Virus record (IMG/VR): IMGVR_UViG_3300042887_005053
Location: 1-64,000 of that record
Strand: one strand, 5' to 3'
DNA from: a virus
Length of the DNA: 64,000 bases
A program made the position numbers and the translations under genes. Below the pieces are notes generated by a model that did no database searches, was not told the origin of the DNA, and saw only the letters and a list, made by a program, of their open reading frames with translations. How positions within the stretch are numbered: position 1 is the first letter of the stretch; each line of letters starts with the position of its first letter. Below are positions 4,695 through 56,370 of this stretch, piece by piece.

Positions 4695-5954
4695 ATGATT
4701 TCAAAATATCAATCATTCAAATTAGATTCAATTTTAGAATCTTTATTACTTGAAAGTAAATTATATTTTTCAGATAGGCTTTTTTCTTTAATTAGTTCAC
4801 TTCCTTCAAATAAAGTAAAAGACTTATTAATAAATCTTCAGAAATCTGGTAAAGACTTAAATCTTAATCAGAATTACTTTGATTTTTCGGATTCTAAAGA
4901 AGAAGTTACTTTTATTCAAGATAGAAGAGCACAATCTATTTTAGGTGACCAACCAATGAAATTTAAAACTAATTCTAATGCTTCAAGTGCTTATCTTACT
5001 TTCAATAAGAAAAATGATGATACCTATACAAATCAATTAATTTTTGATGATTTGAATTTTGATCCAGAGACTTCGAGTAAACAAATACCAGGTTCAGATG
5101 TTGTCGGAGAAATAGTTGCTGAAACACCATCAAGAAAAACACCTGGTAAAATCTATATTTTATTTAAGTGGAAAAATGGTGATTCGGATGATTTTGTAGT
5201 ATTGAATAAAACAGCTGTTTCAAGTTATGACGATAGAATCGATAGAATTTGGCAATTGACTAAAAATCCAATTAGAATTGGAAGGGCTATTAGGTCTGTT
5301 ATCAATGCAGCTGGTGAAACAGTAACAGATGCTGAGATTGAACAATTTGTTAATGACTATAAGTCTGCTTGGGATATTATGAATGATGCATTTTCTAAGT
5401 TTGATATAGTTAACTCTGATAGTATTGCACATTGGTATTCTAATAATCAGTATGAAGGAGGTGGTCGATCTACTTTAGGAAATTCTTGTATGGCTGAGGT
5501 TGATTCAGATTTTTTTGATATCTATGTAGCTAATACTAGGGTTTGTAGTTTAGTTATTCTTTATGGTGATCAAGGTAAGGTAATTGATGGTAAATTCAAA
5601 GGTACTAAAATTAGAGGAAGAGCTTTACTTTGGAAAACTAATGAAGGTGATATGTTTATGGATAGAATCTATTACAATAACGAATCAGATGTTCAGTTAT
5701 TTAAGAGATTTGCTGAAAAGAATGGTTGGTGGTATAAAAGCTCTCAAGATTCAGATACAGATTTTCAAGCATCAAATGGTTCAAATGCTAAATATCCAAC
5801 TTACACAGTAACATTAGAAGAAGTACACTTTGATAATTATCCTTATGTTGATACAATGTGTTATTTAAATAAATCTACTAGAAAAATCAGTAACAATACA
5901 TCTGATATGAGAGAGGAAATGAGAAGTACCTCTGGATATCTTGACGAGATATAA
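4695..5954 (+). CDS. Phage protein, SCM/GRALLW family, copy 1
   Basis: 419 residues. The C-terminal half (about residues 250-390) carries LGNSCM, FDIYVAN, RGRALLWKT, MDRIYY, FAEKNGWWYK and YPYVDT in order. The same series appears in the 401-residue protein at 45586-46791, so the two are diverged paralogues. I recognise the motif set as recurrent in phage proteins but cannot name the fold or activity; the Cys and conserved Arg-Gly-Arg suggest a catalytic or ligand site. The N-terminus MISKYQSF...SILESLLLES resembles the capsid-targeting-like peptide found on other proteins here, which the paralogue lacks. Confidence 0.75.
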   Translation: MISKYQSFKLDSILESLLLESKLYFSDRLFSLISSLPSNKVKDLLINLQKSGKDLNLNQNYFDFSDSKEEVTFIQDRRAQSILGDQPMKFKTNSNASSAYLTFNKKNDDTYTNQLIFDDLNFDPETSSKQIPGSDVVGEIVAETPSRKTPGKIYILFKWKNGDSDDFVVLNKTAVSSYDDRIDRIWQLTKNPIRIGRAIRSVINAAGETVTDAEIEQFVNDYKSAWDIMNDAFSKFDIVNSDSIAHWYSNNQYEGGGRSTLGNSCMAEVDSDFFDIYVANTRVCSLVILYGDQGKVIDGKFKGTKIRGRALLWKTNEGDMFMDRIYYNNESDVQLFKRFAEKNGWWYKSSQDSDTDFQASNGSNAKYPTYTVTLEEVHFDNYPYVDTMCYLNKSTRKISNNTSDMREEMRSTSGYLDEI

Positions 5955-6088: not shown

Positions 6089-7972
6089 ATGAACAAAAAA
6101 GAGTATGTAATCGGCGTAGATCTTGGTACTACAAATTCATGTCTAGCAGTAATTCAAAGTGGTGAACCCACAGTAATTGCAAACAACGAAGGTAAAAGAA
6201 CTACACCATCAGTAGTTGGATTCACTGAATCTGATAGAAAGATTGGTGATCCTGCAAAAAGACAAGCAGTAACAAATCCTACTAAAACCGTTTATTCTAT
6301 TAAGCGTTTTATTGGTAAAGATTTTAATGTTTGTAAAGATGAGGTTAGGCGTGTTCCTTACTTAGTTGAAAGTACAGGTAATAATGTTCCTGGTGTTAAA
6401 ATCGATGACAAACACTTCACACCACAAGAGATTTCGGCAATGATTCTTCAGAAATTGAAGAAGACTGCTGAAGAGTATCTTGGACAAGAAGTGAAAAAAG
6501 CAGTTATCACCGTTCCGGCTTATTTCGGTGATGCTGAAAGAACTGCTACTATTGAGGCTGGTAAAATTGCTGGTCTTGAAGTAGAAAGAATTATCAACGA
6601 ACCAACTGCCGCGGCTTTGGCATACGGTCTTGATAAAAAGAATACTGACCAAAAAATCATTGTTTATGATTTAGGTGGTGGTACTTTTGATATTTCAGTT
6701 CTAGAAATTGGTGATGGTGTTTTCGAAGTAAAATCTACTGATGGTGATACTCACTTAGGTGGTGACGACTTTGATAATCAAATCATCACTTGGATGGTTG
6801 AAGAATTCAAATCTGAACATTCAATGGATCTATCAAAAGATCCTATGGCTCTTCAGCGTTTGAAAGATGCAGCTGAGAAAGCTAAGATTGAACTTTCAAG
6901 TTCTTCACAGAGTGAAATCAATCTTCCTTACATCACTGCAAAAGACGGAGTACCTCTTCACTTCGTTAAAACTTTAACTAAGGCTAAATTTGAGCAAATG
7001 ATTTCTGGGTTGATTGATAGAACAATCAATTGTTGTAAGTCGGCTCTTAAAAACGCCAAAATCAAAAATGAGCAAATTGACGAGGTAATTCTTGTAGGTG
7101 GTTCAACAAGAGTACCGGCAGTTCAAGAAGCAGTTGAAAAGTTCTTTGGAAAGAAAGCCAATAAATCAGTTAACCCTGATGAAGTAGTTGCCATTGGAGC
7201 AGCTATCCAAGGAGCAGTTTTAGCAGGTGATATTACAGATGTTCTTCTTTTGGATGTAACACCTTTATCACTTGGTATCGAGACCATGGGTAATGTTATG
7301 ACTCGTTTGATTGAGTCTAACACAACTATCCCAACTCGTAAAACTGAGACTTTCTCAACAGCGGCAGATAATCAATCTTCTGTAGAAATTCATGTTCTAC
7401 AAGGTGAAAGACCAATGGCACGAGACAATCGTTCACTTGGTAGATTTCACTTAGATAGTATTATGCCAGCACCAAGAGGTGTACCTCAAATTGAAGTAAC
7501 ACTTGACATTGATGCAAACGGTATTTTGTCTGTTTCAGCAAAAGACAAAGCTACTGGTAAAGAAAACAAAATCCGAATCGAAGGTGGCTCTCAACTTTCA
7601 AAAGAAGAGATTGAAAGAATGAAAGCAGAGGCTGAAGCAAATGCAGAAGCAGATCGTCAAGAAAAGGAAAAAGTTGATAAATTGAATTTGGCTGATTCAT
7701 TGATTTTCCAAACAGAAAAACAAATGAAAGAATTCGATGAAAAAATGACAGAGGAAAATAAAACTGAATTAAATGAAGCTTTAGAACCACTCAAAAAGGC
7801 TTATTCAGAAAAAAACATCGAAGAAATCGAACCAGCAATGGAGAAATTAAACGAGACTTGGTCAAAAATCTCAACTGAACTATATTCAAAGACTTCCGAG
7901 TCTACGAATGAACCTGTAAGTACTGAGGACGGCGGTGCACAGGACGTTCAGTTTGAAGAAGTAAAAGAGTAA
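6089..7972 (+). CDS. dnaK: Chaperone DnaK (Hsp70), full length
   Basis: 627 residues, the usual length of bacterial DnaK. The ATPase domain (residues 1 to about 385) shows [44 protein letters not shown] and [10 protein letters not shown]. The linker [16 protein letters not shown] and the substrate-binding and lid domains follow, and the C-terminus is acidic (EEVKE). It is an ATP-driven holdase/foldase needing DnaJ and GrpE partners, not seen here, so host partners are likely. In a phage it may help fold virion or replication proteins. It stands alone: its own regulated promoter lies upstream and a strong terminator follows. Its less AT-rich codon choice suggests high expression. Confidence 0.97.
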
Positions 7973-13785: not shown

Positions 13786-13955
13786 ATTTTTTCGAGTTTC
13801 ATCAACCGATCAATTCTGTAGAATTGTTTTTTAAGAATTTCACCAAGTTTTTTTGAATCAAAATCAAAATTTCGATCCTTCAAATTAGAAGGAGTTGAAT
13901 TAATTTTTGACTTTAATTCGCCTAGCTTTGAATTAAATTCGTTGGTATTATCCAT
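13764..13955 (-). CDS. Small unknown helical protein
   Basis: 63 residues, Asn/Lys/Ser-rich N-terminus then an amphipathic helix (LGEILKKQFYRIDRLMKLEKIWKK). Overlaps nusG by 8 bases and the deaminase by 22, so translated from the same mRNA. Function unknown. Confidence 0.5.
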   Translation of the reverse strand: MDNTNEFNSKLGELKSKINSTPSNLKDRNFDFDSKKLGEILKKQFYRIDRLMKLEKIWKKINN

Positions 13956-14493
13956 TTGATTTCAGAATATCACCAATAGTTAAATCAACTAAGGTAGACC
14001 TACCGAAAATTAAAACTTCGACTTTTACTTTATTCTTATCCATATCAATCCAATCAACAGTTCCTTTGAACTTAGCAAAAGGTCCAGTTACGATTTCAAC
14101 AGTTTCACCAACGATGAATTGAGTTTCAATAACATTTTTATTACTTTCTTTCTCACCGATCATTCTATCTACTTCACTTTGTTTTAAGATAATTGCTACA
14201 CCTTTATTGTCTCTAAGGATGTTAGTTGCGCCGTTTGTAGATTTAACTAAGTGAGCTACCTTATCGATAGAATTAGTTTGAACAAAAACATATCCAGGAT
14301 AAAGAACTTTTTCTTTTTGAACCTTTTTGCCTTCTTTGATATCAATTGTTAATTGAGTTGGAATTAAAAAGACAACATCTTCACCATACTCTCTTTTCAT
14401 ATCAGACTTTAATCTTTCTGAAACTGATTTTTCTCGATTGTTTTGTACTTTAACTGTGTACCAATTTTTAGCTTTTACTTCTGTTTGAATCAT
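13948..14493 (-). CDS. nusG: Transcription elongation factor NusG homologue
   Basis: 181 residues, full length. The NGN domain (about residues 8-115) shows NWYTVKVQNNREKSVSERL and LYPGYVFVQ, and the KOW domain shows FIVGETVEIVTGPFAKFKGTV and ends with FGRSTLVDL. NusG binds the RNA polymerase clamp and, through KOW, Rho or ribosomal S10. A phage copy could keep host polymerase on phage templates or act against termination, and might replace host NusG. It overlaps its upstream gene by 4 bases in a tight minus-strand operon. Confidence 0.93.
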   Translation of the reverse strand: MIQTEVKAKNWYTVKVQNNREKSVSERLKSDMKREYGEDVVFLIPTQLTIDIKEGKKVQKEKVLYPGYVFVQTNSIDKVAHLVKSTNGATNILRDNKGVAIILKQSEVDRMIGEKESNKNVIETQFIVGETVEIVTGPFAKFKGTVDWIDMDKNKVKVEVLIFGRSTLVDLTIGDILKSNG

Positions 14494-20361: not shown

Positions 20362-22197
20362 TTACTTTAACATTTCAATTTTTCTTAGTTCAGACTCTTT
20401 ACCAAACCAAATATTTAAATATTCTTTTGACACATCATCGGATGTTATTTGAGTCAGTCTTGGATTATTAATAATCTCAGAGTATTCTTCATCAACAAGT
20501 GCAGCCAAACCTTTTTTATACTCGATTTCCCAATCTTTTGTGTTAATACTACTTAACCATTTATTATATTCATCCTGAGTATAAAAAGATATTTTCTTTT
20601 TGGTCTTAATATTTTTAGAGACTACGATTGGAGTTTCAGCCTTAAATACCATTGGACTATCAAATAATTCTGGCCAGTATTTGAAAAGAAAATTAATCAA
20701 CAAACCAACAATTGATGATCCATCGTGATCAGCATCACAGTAAAAAAGAATTCTACCATATCTTAATGTACCAGGTATTACTTTTTGACCTAGTTTTAAG
20801 CCAAGTGCTCCCATTAAGTTTACAACTTCATTATTTTGTATGAGTTTCTGAGTATTGATCTCAGCAGCGTTTATAAACTTTCCTCTAAGTGAGAAAGCAC
20901 CTTGTGTTTGTGGATCACGGTATTTTCTAAATGCAGATGAAGCAGAATCTCCCTCAAATAAACTTAGACTACATCTCCATCTTTCTTTACCTTTAGCATC
21001 AATTAACTTATCAACTTTAATTTTGGCTAAATTCTTATTTAGTTCTCTAGCTAATTTATTTTCATCGGCACTTTTCTTTTGTTGAATCCAGTCTAATACA
21101 GAATTCACAATTTCAGATTTTAGTATAGATTTTATAAGTTTATCGGATACTTGATAAGTGAATCCAAAATCTTTTACTTCAGTAATTAGTTTCTCTTTAG
21201 TTTGAGAAGAAAAGCTTGGATTAACTACAGTTGAATTTAGAAATAAACATATATGATTCTTTAATTCAGATGGTTTAACATCAACTTTATGTTTCTTTTG
21301 AAAGAATTCTCTTAGTTGTGATAATATTTGATTTAAGATGTAATCAACATGACTTCCACCATCATAAGTATCAGTTGAATTGACAAATGATATTTGTTGA
21401 AATCCGTCTTCTGAGTTAGTGATAGCTAAAGACCAAGTTTTGTCTTTGTCACTCTCAAAAAAGAATTCTTCTTTGTAGAATCTAACATAATCCTCAAAAG
21501 ATTTGATATTAATTAATTCGTCATTGAAGTAAACTTTAATATTTGGGTTACAACCAGCTATGTCAATAACTCTTTTTTGAATCATCTTAAAGTGTGACTC
21601 ATCAAGATTTTGTAGTCCAAACTTTTCATAATCAGGACTATAAGTAATCTCGGTAAAATTTTTAGTGGATTTTTTTACTTTAGCAACAGTTCTTTCTCTC
21701 ATATTATTTGAAAAAGTCTGGACAAAAAGATTTTTACCATCACAAGTTTCTACTTTGAATTCTTTTGAATAAATATTAGTCAGAGTACTACCAACTCCGT
21801 TGGTCCCTGCTCCAGTACGACTTTCATCATCATTAAAGTTAGAACCAGCCTTTAGATTTGAGAATATCATTTCTGGAATCCATTCATTGTCTTCTTTGTG
21901 TTTCACAACTGGAATTCCACCATTATCCCAAATAGAAATAATACTATCTTTGACACTAACTTTAATTGTATTTAGTTTACTACCTTCTCTTTTGTATTCA
22001 TCAACTGAATTTGTTACTATCTCATCAAATATTTTCAAGAAACCAGGATTATAAGTGATTTCTTCAAGTTGCATCTTACCACTGTTATATAAAAACTTCT
22101 TAGATGTGTGCGGCTTGATAGATCCAATATACATACCAGGTCTAAGTAGTACGTGAGCTACATCATCTAATTTTTTAAACTTCTTTTCAATTGACAT
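20362..22197 (-). CDS. 39: DNA topoisomerase II large subunit (T4 gp39/gp60 type, undivided)
   Basis: 611 residues. The GHKL ATPase domain shows DEIVTNSVDEY, WDNGGIP and TGAGTNGVGSTLTNI, and the TOPRIM domain shows the FEGDSASSAF glutamate and DADHDG metal site. It pairs with the gp52-like subunit to pass one duplex through another and relieve replication stress. In T4 the subunit is split into genes 39 and 60; here one open frame carries both parts. The partner gene is divergent, with 113 bases between them holding an AATATATATTAG motif. Confidence 0.95.
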   Translation of the reverse strand: MSIEKKFKKLDDVAHVLLRPGMYIGSIKPHTSKKFLYNSGKMQLEEITYNPGFLKIFDEIVTNSVDEYKREGSKLNTIKVSVKDSIISIWDNGGIPVVKHKEDNEWIPEMIFSNLKAGSNFNDDESRTGAGTNGVGSTLTNIYSKEFKVETCDGKNLFVQTFSNNMRERTVAKVKKSTKNFTEITYSPDYEKFGLQNLDESHFKMIQKRVIDIAGCNPNIKVYFNDELINIKSFEDYVRFYKEEFFFESDKDKTWSLAITNSEDGFQQISFVNSTDTYDGGSHVDYILNQILSQLREFFQKKHKVDVKPSELKNHICLFLNSTVVNPSFSSQTKEKLITEVKDFGFTYQVSDKLIKSILKSEIVNSVLDWIQQKKSADENKLARELNKNLAKIKVDKLIDAKGKERWRCSLSLFEGDSASSAFRKYRDPQTQGAFSLRGKFINAAEINTQKLIQNNEVVNLMGALGLKLGQKVIPGTLRYGRILFYCDADHDGSSIVGLLINFLFKYWPELFDSPMVFKAETPIVVSKNIKTKKKISFYTQDEYNKWLSSINTKDWEIEYKKGLAALVDEEYSEIINNPRLTQITSDDVSKEYLNIWFGKESELRKIEMLK

Positions 22198-22310
22198 TCT
22201 AAACTTAAAATTTTTCTAATATATATTGTCTCACTAAATTTGTTTTTATAAACTTTAGAAACCTAATAGATAAAAACTTATATATTGATTAAAAATAAAA
22301 GTTCATATTG

Positions 22311-23654
22311 ATGTCGTCTACTAAAACAATTACTCAGTTTCTTTCACAAGAATATAAAGAATTTTCACTCTACACGATTGAGAATAGAGCTATTCCTTCA
22401 GTCATTGATGGTTTCAAACCAACTCACAGAAAAGTCATACACGCTTGTAATAATATTTGGAAAAATGGTTCTGAAAAACCACTTAAAGTTTTTCAATTAG
22501 CTGGAAAAGTAGCATCAGATGTTTTTTATCATCACGGAAACGCATCTTTAGAATCATCAATTATTACTATGGCTCAAGGTTTCAAGAATAATATGGCACT
22601 TCTTGAAGAAATCGGTCAGTTTGGTTCACTTAGATCACCTGAACCAGGTGCTGCAAGATATATTGGCACCAAATTAAATAATAACTTTAGATTACTTTAC
22701 AAAGACTTTGAACTTTTAGAACATAAAGAAGAAGAAGGATTTGAAATAGAACCAAAATACTTTCTACCAATTATACCAACTGTCTTAATCAATGGTTCTT
22801 CTGGTATCGCTGTTGGATTTTCTTCAAACATTCTAAACAGAAATCCAAATGAAATAATAATTGCTTGTGAAAACATAATAAAAGGCAAAAAAATATCTGA
22901 TGTTAAGCCTTTTAATAACTTCTTCAAAGGTGAATATATTCAAGATACAGATAATCATAAAAAGTGGTTTATAAGAGGTAAAGTAGAAAAAATTAACACA
23001 TCAACTGTCAAAATTTCTGAATTACCACCATCGATGACTTATGAGAAATACGAAAACATCTTAGATGCTTTAGTTGAGAATAAAACTATAGTAAGTTACG
23101 ATGATAACTGTAAAGATAGTATTGATTACACTATTAAGTTCACTCGAGAATCATTAGCTCAGTTAGATGATGATAAGTTATTCAAAGTTTTGAAGCTTGA
23201 AGAAACAGAAACAGAAATATTCACAACTTTAGATGAAAACGGAAAGTTAAAAATATTTGATAGTAGTAAAGACATAATTGAATACTTTGTTAATTTCAGA
23301 TTAGAATATTATGTTAAAAGAAAAGACTTTTTACTTAACAAGTTAAGACAAGAGTTAAAGGTCTTAGCTAATAGAGGTAGATTTATTAAGTTTATTTTGG
23401 ATAATAAATTAGAAATAAAAAACAGGAAAAAAGCTGAAATCGTTTATGATTGTGAGAAATTAGGATTAGAAAAAATGGATGATTCATTTGATTATCTTTT
23501 AAGAATGCCAATCTGGTCTCTAACACAAGAATTGTTTGATAAGTTAAAAGATGATTATAGATCTAAGAAAGTAGAAGTAGAAGAACTAGAAAAGATTGAA
23601 CCAAAAGATATGTATCTTCAAGATTTAACTGAATTAAAAAAGAAGCTAAAATGA
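22311..23654 (+). CDS. 52: DNA topoisomerase II medium subunit (T4 gp52 type)
   Basis: 447 residues. ATG at 22311 is preferred to the TTG one codon earlier. The breakage-reunion domain shows RAIPSVIDGFKPTHRKVI, HHGNASLESSI, and the active-site Tyr in EPGAARYIGTKL (about Tyr117). NGSSGIAVGFSSNI and a coiled-coil region near residues 330-360 complete it. It forms the DNA-cutting gate with the large subunit encoded divergently. Overlaps the next small gene by 4 bases. Confidence 0.95.
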   Translation: MSSTKTITQFLSQEYKEFSLYTIENRAIPSVIDGFKPTHRKVIHACNNIWKNGSEKPLKVFQLAGKVASDVFYHHGNASLESSIITMAQGFKNNMALLEEIGQFGSLRSPEPGAARYIGTKLNNNFRLLYKDFELLEHKEEEGFEIEPKYFLPIIPTVLINGSSGIAVGFSSNILNRNPNEIIIACENIIKGKKISDVKPFNNFFKGEYIQDTDNHKKWFIRGKVEKINTSTVKISELPPSMTYEKYENILDALVENKTIVSYDDNCKDSIDYTIKFTRESLAQLDDDKLFKVLKLEETETEIFTTLDENGKLKIFDSSKDIIEYFVNFRLEYYVKRKDFLLNKLRQELKVLANRGRFIKFILDNKLEIKNRKKAEIVYDCEKLGLEKMDDSFDYLLRMPIWSLTQELFDKLKDDYRSKKVEVEELEKIEPKDMYLQDLTELKKKLK

Positions 23655-43395: not shown

Positions 43396-43427
43396 TTTGT
43401 TTTTTTGAAATTTTATCCTTATCTTTG
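43396..43427 (+). promoter_or_regulatory. Bacteroidota-type promoter
   Basis: TTTG (43396-43399), 20 bases, TATCTTTG (43420-43427); five bases before the ATG at 43433, predicting a leaderless mRNA. Confidence 0.75.
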
Positions 43428-43432
43428 TATTT

Positions 43433-43813
43433 ATGAGAGAAACTACCAAAATAGAAGTGGCGCAGAAGTGTTTTAATTGGTGTAAAAAGAAGTTTGGCAG
43501 TCCAATATCAGAAACATCAAAAAAGGATTATCCAAGTCTTATATTAGTACCAGACAGAAGAAGAAAGAGATTATACGGTGAATATTCACCGTCTGAAATA
43601 AAGATTTTTTTGAATGTTTGTCAAACTAAAAAGGATATTGTGTCAACAATAATACACGAATACACTCATTTTCTACAAATGCCAAAAAGTATTAAACCTT
43701 ATCACAAGATTCAAAAAGATTTTGAATATTCTGACAATCCTTTTGAAAAAGAAGCTGTGTTAGCAGAATCAAAATTTACTAAAAAATGTTTAAAACAAAT
43801 TAAGAAAAAATGA
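43433..43813 (+). CDS. Small zinc metalloprotease-like protein
   Basis: 126 residues. H75-E-Y-T-H79 (STIIHEYTHFLQMP) is an HExxH zinc site, and EKEAVLAE some 30 residues later could give the third ligand. A basic C-terminus follows. It may be a protease of the SprT/gluzincin kind. The stop is followed directly by the candidate structured RNA. Confidence 0.7.
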   Translation: MRETTKIEVAQKCFNWCKKKFGSPISETSKKDYPSLILVPDRRRKRLYGEYSPSEIKIFLNVCQTKKDIVSTIIHEYTHFLQMPKSIKPYHKIQKDFEYSDNPFEKEAVLAESKFTKKCLKQIKKK

Positions 43814-43821
43814 TAAGATTA

Positions 43822-43965
43822 AAAATCAATCGATAGTGTAAAATTTAGTCCTTAGGTGACTGCCATAAAGCACACACTATACGCCCTGGCAATAGAGCAT
43901 ACATCAAGCTTGTATGAGTAGTGTAGTTGAGGTAAAATGGTTAATCCTCAAAAGATTGATTTAAT
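43822..43965 (+). ncRNA. Candidate structured RNA with pseudoknot
   Basis: About 145 non-coding bases between a gene and its terminator. Pairings: closing stem 43823-43831 (AAATCAATC) with 43954-43962 (GATTGATTT); ATAGTGT 43833-43839 with ACACTAT 43874-43880; TGCCA 43861-43865 with TGGCA 43887-43891, which crosses the previous stem; hairpins CATACA/TGTATG (43898-43916) and TTGAGG/CCTCAA (43927-43950). TAGTGT at 43919-43924 can compete for ACACTA. No known RNA family recognised and no own promoter found, so it may be processed from the mRNA of the metalloprotease gene. Confidence 0.6.
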
Positions 43966-43993
43966 ACCGATAGTTTAACTATCGGTTTTTTTT
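43966..43993 (+). terminator. Intrinsic terminator
   Basis: ACCGATAGT / ACTATCGGT with a TTA loop and eight T's. It follows the candidate structured RNA by a few bases. Confidence 0.9.
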
Positions 43994-44002
43994 ATTTAAA
44001 AA

Positions 44003-44034
44003 TTTGTTTATTCGGAATTTTATAACTATTTTTG
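44003..44034 (+). promoter_or_regulatory. Bacteroidota-type promoter
   Basis: TTTG (44003-44006), 20 bases, TATTTTTG (44027-44034). Drives the gene at 44053 with an 18-base leader. Confidence 0.7.
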
Positions 44035-45585: not shown

Positions 45586-46791
45586 ATGGCATATTCAAGA
45601 AAAACTGGTGATTTATTTATTTCAGAGGAGATCAAGGAAATTTTAGTTCAAATTGAAAAAGAATCAGTAGTGGCAAAAGCTCTTTTGAAGCAAAGACACT
45701 CATTGGATAGCCTTTGTGAAGATTATGTTAATTACATATCAATCTCTGTACAAGATAGATTTCGTATTTCCTATTTAACTCCAGAAAGAATCGAGTCAAT
45801 CCCTGATCAAGAACTTTGGACTTCTTCTAAAAGATTTAATGCAAAAGCTGGTTCAGTCATTAAAAAGATTTTTCCAAATTTCACTGAAAGAGAAATAGAT
45901 AATTTTATAACATTATACAGATCTATTATATCTAAGCCTGACTTCAAATTCAAAGTAGTTAAAGGTGAAGATATTAAAAAGTATTATCATTATTCACAAT
46001 ATTTTGATAATTCTTCATCACTTGGTGCTTCTTGTATGAAGCATGATTCTTGTCAAGATTTTCTAGATATTTACACAGAAAACTCAGATAAAGTTAGTTT
46101 ACTGATAATGGTTAATCCTTCTGATAAAATCTTAGGAAGAGCTTTGCTTTGGAATTTACCAGATATTAAATTGATGGATCGTATATACACAATTGATGAT
46201 AATGATCTTACTTTTCATTTCAAAAAATGGGCACAAGATAATGGATTCTTTTACAAAAAAGAACAAAAATGGAATAACACATTATTCTTTATTCGACCAG
46301 ATGGAAAATCAGTTCAATTGGAATTGTCTGTTGAAATTGAGAATATCAGAAATTTTGAAAGATTCCCTTACTTTGATACCTTCAAATTCTACTCACCATC
46401 GAAAAAACGACTTTATAACTTTATGCCACAATCTGGTTTCGATTATATCTTATCATCACCAGATGGATATAAACAAGAGTCAGATCATTTGGCACAGTGT
46501 TCTAAAAGTAAACTCTTCTATTATAAAGGTGACACTCAATATTTAGATTATCTGAATTCAAGAGTGTTTAGTGGAGACTTACACTTTTCAGATGTAAATG
46601 ATTGTTATATCTATAAAGATGATTGTATTTGGGATGAAGATTTAAGAGATTATATTTTCTCTGACTCAAGTATGAATAATGAAAAGTCTATTCAAAGAAG
46701 AAAAGATTGGTTAGAAAGAAGAAGAAAAGAAAGAGATGAAGAAGAGTCTCGACTAAGAAACTCTTTGTCAGATTATCTTGAATTCAACTGA
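45586..46791 (+). CDS. Phage protein, SCM/GRALLW family, copy 2
   Basis: 401 residues. LGASCMKH, FLDIYTEN, LGRALLWNL, MDRIYT, FKKWAQDNGFFYKK and FPYFDTF follow the same order as in the 419-residue protein at 4695, so the two are paralogues. This copy lacks the targeting-like N-terminus but has an extra C-terminal region (about residues 280-401) ending in an Arg/Glu-rich helix. A TATATTTG box (45563-45570) lies 15 bases upstream. Function unknown. Confidence 0.75.
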   Translation: MAYSRKTGDLFISEEIKEILVQIEKESVVAKALLKQRHSLDSLCEDYVNYISISVQDRFRISYLTPERIESIPDQELWTSSKRFNAKAGSVIKKIFPNFTEREIDNFITLYRSIISKPDFKFKVVKGEDIKKYYHYSQYFDNSSSLGASCMKHDSCQDFLDIYTENSDKVSLLIMVNPSDKILGRALLWNLPDIKLMDRIYTIDDNDLTFHFKKWAQDNGFFYKKEQKWNNTLFFIRPDGKSVQLELSVEIENIRNFERFPYFDTFKFYSPSKKRLYNFMPQSGFDYILSSPDGYKQESDHLAQCSKSKLFYYKGDTQYLDYLNSRVFSGDLHFSDVNDCYIYKDDCIWDEDLRDYIFSDSSMNNEKSIQRRKDWLERRRKERDEEESRLRNSLSDYLEFN

Positions 46792-55416: not shown

Positions 55417-56370
55417 ATGAATATAAAAATTTTTTCTGGTTCCAATTATAAAGATTTAGGTAAGCAAATCAGTGAACATTTAGGTATCGAAATGGGTAGT
55501 CTGAGAATTGATAAATTCAAAGACGGTGAGATACTACCTTGTTTTTTAGAATCAATCAGAGATTTAGACATATTCTTTGTTAACAGTACGGACTCTTCTG
55601 AGTCTATTATGGAGACTCTTTTAGTAACTGATGCCGCAAAAAGAGCTGGTTGTAAATCATTTACCTTGGTCTCACCGTATTCTGGTTATTCAAGGCAGGA
55701 CAAAACAGATCATTTGAGATCTTCAATTGGAAGTAAGCTTTTAGCCGATATACTTGAAAAAGCCGGTGTCTCAAGATTAATAACTATAGACTTACACGCT
55801 AGTGCAATTCAAGGATTTTATAACATACCAGTGATTCACTTAAATGGAAACAAGGTATCGAGTAACTATATTAAATCTCTTAATTTAGATAATCTCTGTA
55901 TAGTTGCACCAGATCAAGGTGCTGTCAAAAGAGCTTCTGATTTTTGCAAAGCTTTTCCAGAGTCTTCTTTTGCTATGATTAATAAAAGAAGGCTTAAACC
56001 AAATGAAATTCATTCAATGGAGCTTGTTGGAGATGTTACTAATAAGAATGTAATAATTGTAGATGATATGGCTGATACTTTAGGTACTATGGTAAAAGCA
56101 TCAGACTTACTTTTATCTAAAGGTGCTACATCTGTAAGATGTGTAGCGACTCACGGAATATTGAGTGGTGAAGCACTAAATAATCTTGAAAACTCACAGA
56201 TAACAGAGTTAGTTGTTTCTGATACTATTAACTCAACTCTTGATAAAGAAGTAGCAATGAGTAATTCTATACACAGAATTAAAGTAATAAGTTGTTCATA
56301 TCTATTAGCTAAATCAATTTCGGCTCTTTATCAAAAGAGGAGTATTCACGAAATAAATGTAATTGAATAA
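55417..56370 (+). CDS. prs: Ribose-phosphate pyrophosphokinase family (Prs or ADP-ribose-type homologue)
   Basis: 317 residues. YSGYSRQDKTDHLRSSIGSK, IDLHASAIQGFYN and the PRPP loop VIIVDDMADTLGTM are present; the loop in cellular enzymes is usually VDDMIDTAGT, so it differs here. It makes PRPP from ribose-5-phosphate and ATP. Some phage homologues instead act on ADP-ribose to rebuild NAD+ against NAD-depleting defence. Context is nucleotide and kinase genes. Which substrate is used cannot be told from the sequence. Confidence 0.88.
   Translation: MNIKIFSGSNYKDLGKQISEHLGIEMGSLRIDKFKDGEILPCFLESIRDLDIFFVNSTDSSESIMETLLVTDAAKRAGCKSFTLVSPYSGYSRQDKTDHLRSSIGSKLLADILEKAGVSRLITIDLHASAIQGFYNIPVIHLNGNKVSSNYIKSLNLDNLCIVAPDQGAVKRASDFCKAFPESSFAMINKRRLKPNEIHSMELVGDVTNKNVIIVDDMADTLGTMVKASDLLLSKGATSVRCVATHGILSGEALNNLENSQITELVVSDTINSTLDKEVAMSNSIHRIKVISCSYLLAKSISALYQKRSIHEINVIE

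Follow-up and report, generated by a model that had tools for sequence, protein, structure and literature searches.

What is encoded between a metalloprotease-like gene and the next gene of the virus record IMGVR_UViG_3300042887_005053 (204,336 bases), and if it is an RNA, what might this RNA do? We analysed positions 1 to 64,000 of the record; this stretch of 64,000 nucleotides is called the window. According to its ORF list there is no open reading frame of at least 40 amino acids within 43814–44031. The window also has host-like genes for Hsp70 (DnaK), the B and A subunits of gyrase/topo IV, NusG and a PRPP synthetase-like protein (6089–7972, 20362–23654, 13948–14493 and 55417–56370). The features around the gap are the following:

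43396..43427, + strand: Bacteroidota-type promoter TTTG-N20-TATCTTTG, putative start of a transcript of the metalloprotease gene and the RNA (pattern scan)
43433..43813, + strand: metalloprotease-like ORF of 126 amino acids with a HEYTH motif, directly upstream of the RNA (ORF list, DUF6782)
43823..43962, + strand: structured RNA core of 140 nt (homologues and covariation)
43966..43993, + strand: intrinsic terminator, perfect 9-bp stem and T run; a related stem is found in the homologous locus L008
44003..44034, + strand: predicted promoter of the next gene, 3′ of the RNA terminator (pattern scan); likewise in L041, L042, L043 and L045
44053..44913, + strand: next gene, 286 amino acids, predicted fold like phage DUF932/TIGR03299 proteins

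A folded non-coding RNA

The original prediction proposed a new structured RNA, possibly a regulatory RNA, with a pseudoknot and its own terminator, and our results support this with a likely pseudoknot. All its elements are found in the sequence: the 9-bp stem (43823–43831/43954–43962), ATAGTGT (43833–43839) and ACACTAT (43874–43880), the strings TGCCA (43861–43865) and TGGCA (43887–43891), a second TAGTGT (43919–43924), the two hairpins (43898–43916 and 43927–43951) and the terminator, whose perfect 9-bp stem spans 43966–43986 and whose T run extends to 43993. In agreement with its reading by eye, in which no tRNA, tmRNA or named ribozyme core was recognised, ARAGORN recognises no tRNA or tmRNA in the 64 kb window or in the homologue loci fetched, and the Rfam search which it had proposed gave no family at or above the gathering cut-off (Rfam 15, window and five homologue loci). 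At a relaxed E-value the sub-threshold Rfam matches were due to chance or to the terminator only.

The folding energy of the RNA beats 200 of 200 dinucleotide shuffles (z = −2.83), which by itself is suggestive of a real structured RNA. A stem descriptor taken by itself is unspecific, and like sets of stems arise many times by chance across the window; therefore homologues are needed to judge whether the RNA is real. We take it as real because its homologues carry compensatory changes. Judged by this comparison, the stretch encodes a real and hitherto undescribed folded non-coding RNA of ∼145 bases, and we found no description of it in open-access papers.

Homologues in large phage contigs

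The RNA is present on 10 contigs in nine distinct sequences which are 64–93% identical, with one copy per record, and the carriers are large uncultured phage contigs, that is environmental giant-phage sequences. BLAST of loci fetched via neighbouring genes yielded the copy in L008 (78% over 176 columns, E 3e-30). The similarity between the window and L008 starts and stops with the RNA and its terminator, the related terminator stem in L008 being CCAATAGTTT/AAACTATTGG at the same place. A third copy, on a 476-kb phage contig, was found with model R1, which was built on the window sequence alone (E 1.1e-9). The motif CTGGCNATAGANNNNNCATCANGCTTG, taken from the first three copies, led in IMG/VR to L041, L042, L043, L044 and L045, all five of which R1 confirmed, and a search with the second model, R2, added L068 and L069, two further contigs with mutually identical copies. 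E-values of the homologues with R1 and R2 range from 1e-9 to 1e-40.

BLASTN against INPHARED gave no match to the RNA, the GTDB genomes, searched with one exact motif only, gave 0 matches, and searching IMG/VR with an exact 18-mer and with a pattern of the P6 loop revealed no additional true homologue. Two matches of a second P6 pattern, L074 and L075, are due to chance. Weak R1/R2 matches (LR756502, LR756504, L011, L033, G007 and extra sites in G001 and the window; E 0.04–0.8) score at chance level, and the conserved loops are missing in those inspected.

With R2 no copy was detected in three complete huge phages of 634–642 kb. Two of these, LR745206 and LR756502, do have syntenic proteins, and reading the sequence upstream of their DUF932-like gene showed no RNA there. 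Since there are complete huge phages that lack it, two of them with the same neighbouring genes, the RNA is not essential to the clade.

Secondary structure and covariation

The comparison of the homologues suggests a compact fold with a closing stem P1, the helices P2/P3 and P4/P5 and the hairpin P6, followed by the intrinsic terminator:

43823..43831/43954..43962, + strand: closing stem P1 (own-sequence pairing against strand swap)
43833..43843, + strand: near-invariant ATAGTGTAAAA, which holds the first TAGTGT; its GTGT at 43836–43839 is the 5′ strand of P2 (alignments)
43836..43839/43870..43873, + strand: P2, GTGT/GCAC, invariant in nine sequences
43847..43861, + strand: P3 hairpin AGUC/GACU, with variants in homologues
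43862..43866, + strand: candidate pseudoknot strand GCCAU in the segment joining P3 and P2, pairs with 43937–43941
43874..43880/43918..43924, + strand: P4, ACACTAT and the strand containing the second TAGTGT (compensatory changes)
43884..43896, + strand: near-invariant internal loop CCCUGGCAAUAGA, putative partner-binding site (alignments)
43898..43916, + strand: P5 hairpin CAUACA/UGUAUG with the conserved loop UCA[A/U]GCU (compensatory changes)
43927..43951, + strand: P6 hairpin UUGAGG/CCUCAA, inner 5 bp paired in nine of nine sequences
43937..43941, + strand: candidate pseudoknot strand AUGGU in the P6 loop, pairs with 43862–43866

In the covariance-model alignment A11, which was fitted to the R2 structure and hence leans towards it, 90% of the cells pair and both partners have changed in 17 of 37 pairs; none of 500 shuffles reaches any of five measures, and no slide comes near. 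Covariation is therefore present in the homologues, whose lack of it the original prediction had named as one finding that would speak against the RNA. It is these compensatory base-pair changes that place the RNA among the conserved structured non-coding RNAs in the general sense.

The single helices were compared by permutation of the distinct strands, with registers set by hand and strands selected manually for pairing inside each sequence, a choice that favours the own-sequence value. This applies most to P1, which is 93% paired within its own sequence versus 37% with strands swapped (p=5e-5). P4 shows compensatory changes in five of its six core pairs (p=3e-4) and P5 at three pairs (p=0.001). 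Thus, the sequence comparison demonstrates pairing of the predicted helices P1, P4 and P5. P3 varies as AGUU/AACU, GGUC/GGCU and AGCU/GGCU, is 100% paired and has two pairs with compensatory changes; its permutation by itself is not significant (p=0.17), and we consider this hairpin moderately well supported by the alignment. P2 is invariant and P6 nearly so (four of its inner five pairs do not vary and the fifth varies on one side only), and therefore covariation is uninformative for these two helices. RNAalifold on A11 predicts P1 (in part), P2, P3, P5 and P6, P2 thus being predicted independently, but not P4. P4 and the pseudoknot do not belong to the thermodynamically optimal structure of several homologues, and both rest on the comparison.

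Two parts of the original prediction have to be revised. The proposed TGCCA/TGGCA pseudoknot forms five of five pairs in the window and only 62% across the homologues, which is the level found across sequences, and it shows no compensatory change. GCCAU/AUGGU is the likelier pseudoknot, with moderate support from the comparison: it shows C-G/G-C and A-U/G-C exchanges between groups (permutation p about 0.04–0.05), and in the majority of relatives it reads CGG(U)/(A)CCG, a double exchange at two positions that represents few independent events. The second revision concerns ACACTA, for which the two TAGTGT copies had been thought to compete in a switch with two folds. Covariation links ACACTA to the second copy (P4), and the first copy is nearly constant while its supposed partner varies. 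Its pairing is equalled by 410 of 500 shuffles (permutation p=0.84), and the probability of this stem is at most 0.21 in the window, L008 and L068 and 0.00 in six other sequences.

The longest invariant segments are CCCUGGC-AUAGA in the internal loop between P4 and P5, UCA[A/U]GCU in the P5 loop and UAGUGUAAA. CUGGC and AUAGA are kept in nine of nine sequences. These segments are located in loops and in the joining regions; P1, P4 and P5, in contrast, vary but stay paired. Within the window, near-complements of CCCTGGCAATAGA, as antisense targets, are no commoner than expected by chance.

Promoters and neighbouring genes

The pattern TTTG-N18-21-TAnnTTTG is the promoter consensus of Bacteroidota (PMC7366714). 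The window has 12 such sites on its + strand and a single one on the − strand, compared with one to two in reversed-sequence controls, which points to a Bacteroidota host and to the probable use of host-type promoters. One such site precedes the metalloprotease-like gene, whose DUF6782 match is slightly below the curated cut-off (E 6.6e-6), and the RNA apparently forms the 3′ end of this gene's transcript in the window. Directly before the RNA a TAnnTTTG-type consensus is found in none of the members. L041–L043 and L045 have by eye an AAACTT...TATAAT-like stretch before the RNA which could conceivably be its own promoter there.

The upstream neighbour differs from genome to genome. In L008 it is an SPFH-like gene (read from the protein) rather than the metalloprotease, and the RNA overlaps its end; in L040/L046 the stop of a 171-aa gene and in L044 a 65-aa ORF is found. 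In L042 a same-strand 311-aa ORF ends ∼30 bp before the RNA. L041, L043 and L045 carry the RNA in a gap between divergent genes, the upstream one being encoded on the opposite strand. Downstream of the RNA, the homologues have hairpins with T-rich tails (by eye).

The RNA is located directly upstream of the DUF932-like gene in the window, L041, L042 and L043. The 286-aa protein has no Pfam or PHROG match; its AlphaFold2 model has a mean pLDDT of 85.5 and matches DUF932/TIGR03299 phage proteins in BFVD by Foldseek with prob 1.00 and a TM of about 0.5. Large phage contigs encode homologues of this protein at 14 loci. The relationships of G000 to LR745206, LR756502, G001 and L008 are mosaic: for the 44053 protein the nearest counterpart is in G001 (71–72%), for the RNA and also for the 43177 gene in L008, and for the 46827 exonuclease in L030/L031. 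In G001 the RNA is ∼47 kb away from the homologue of the 44053 protein. Further downstream, 45586–46791 and, elsewhere in the window, 4695–5954 apparently encode two members of one uncharacterised family. An L028 relative of the 45586–46791 protein also matches 5247–5894 at 30%, and proteins similar to this family flank the RNA in L041 (by eye).

Possible role of the RNA

We suggest that the RNA is probably a stand-alone, trans-acting structured RNA of ∼145 nt plus terminator encoded by the phage. A folded RNA which acts in trans with a partner is favoured because the loops are invariant, the neighbouring genes change and some copies lie in divergent gaps. We infer that in the window the RNA would be the 3′ end of the upstream mRNA, released by processing or simply proximal to the terminator. 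In L041, L043 and L045 it would be its own transcript from the divergent gap, and probably an own transcript also in L042. It would form a compact junction of P1, P2/P3, P4/P5 and P6, probably locked by a loop–loop pseudoknot between joining segment 3/2 and the P6 loop. During infection the near-invariant CCCUGGC-AUAGA, UCA[A/U]GCU and UAGUGUAAA may then be presented in trans to a protein or another macromolecular partner. If the RNA is indeed stand-alone and trans-acting, we lean slightly towards a partner-binding or RNP RNA; a base-pairing sRNA would be possible but not likely, and a ribozyme or other function rather unlikely. It is likewise rather unlikely that this single-copy independent unit among changing neighbours represents a new complex functional class of giant-phage RNA with a catalytic or a host-takeover/RNP role.

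Alternatively, fold and terminator could be a cis-acting 3′-UTR element that stabilises or ends the upstream mRNA without any role in trans. In the window, L008, L044, L046 and L068 a same-strand stop codon lies within ∼45 nt before the RNA, a terminator-like hairpin follows and no consensus promoter is found immediately upstream of the RNA, an arrangement that would fit such an element and would also fit a 3′ UTR-derived sRNA. This arrangement is not matched in L041, L043 and L045, where the divergent upstream gene leaves no mRNA to serve. In addition, the upstream gene varies between genomes, and a plain terminator needs no invariant loops. We regard this explanation as improbable. Less probable still is a self-cleaving ribozyme, for which the RNA is a candidate by its compact fold, its probable pseudoknot and the length of its invariant internal loops, but which finds no Rfam ribozyme match.

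Slightly more improbable is a leader, that is a riboswitch or attenuator of the DUF932-like gene, even though RNA and terminator directly precede this gene in the four genomes named above and the complex fold is aptamer-like. In five genomes (window, L041, L042, L043 and L045) a separate predicted promoter, a consensus match rather than a mapped start, lies 3′ of the terminator. Because this promoter comes after its terminator the RNA is not an attenuator in these genomes, and the downstream gene therefore need not depend on read-through. Moreover, the RNA is not directly before the DUF932-like gene in L008, L044, L046 and L068/L069, and no anti-terminator pairing was noticed. A two-state switch by competing TAGTGT copies has the least to recommend it, since the 7-bp alternative stem, ∼1.3 kcal/mol above the best fold with a probability of ∼0.2 in the window alone, pairs at shuffle level among the homologues while P4 covaries instead.

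Comparison with known RNAs

Few non-coding RNAs of giant phages have been described in the papers searched, and the RNA presented here suggests that giant phages carry complex RNAs which are invisible to current libraries. The comparative structure, the near-invariant segments and the nine divergent sequences suffice to build a covariance model, to prepare an Rfam entry and to test the RNA directly.

Leaders of the riboswitch or attenuator type resemble the stand-alone RNA proposed here in their complex, conserved structure with a terminator at its end. They differ in that in five genomes the terminator of this RNA has a separate promoter behind it, and in that no downstream gene is common to all members. 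UTR-derived sRNA candidates have been reported in Bacteroides thetaiotaomicron (PMC7366714). Like 3′ UTR-derived bacterial sRNAs, the RNA of the window seems to have its promoter and its terminator in common with the upstream gene; in contrast to these, the upstream gene is not conserved and copies in divergent gaps exist. A typical antisense sRNA has a less elaborate conserved fold than the new RNA.

GOLLD and ROOL are structured RNAs of phages and prophages which are elaborate and conserved and have no known function; many GOLLD members are longer than 800 nt, both RNAs are usually found near tRNA islands, and their covariance profiles are included in Rfam (PMC12286853). The Rfam scan of the window and five homologue loci gave no covariance match to either. 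The new RNA is much smaller (∼145 nt), and no tRNA is present in the window or in the loci fetched. Nevertheless, it shares with GOLLD and ROOL that it is phage-encoded and has a conserved structure found via covariance analysis. GOLLD and ROOL are thus its nearest kind, though a different family, and the RNA described here forms a new family within a broad kind of RNA that is already known.
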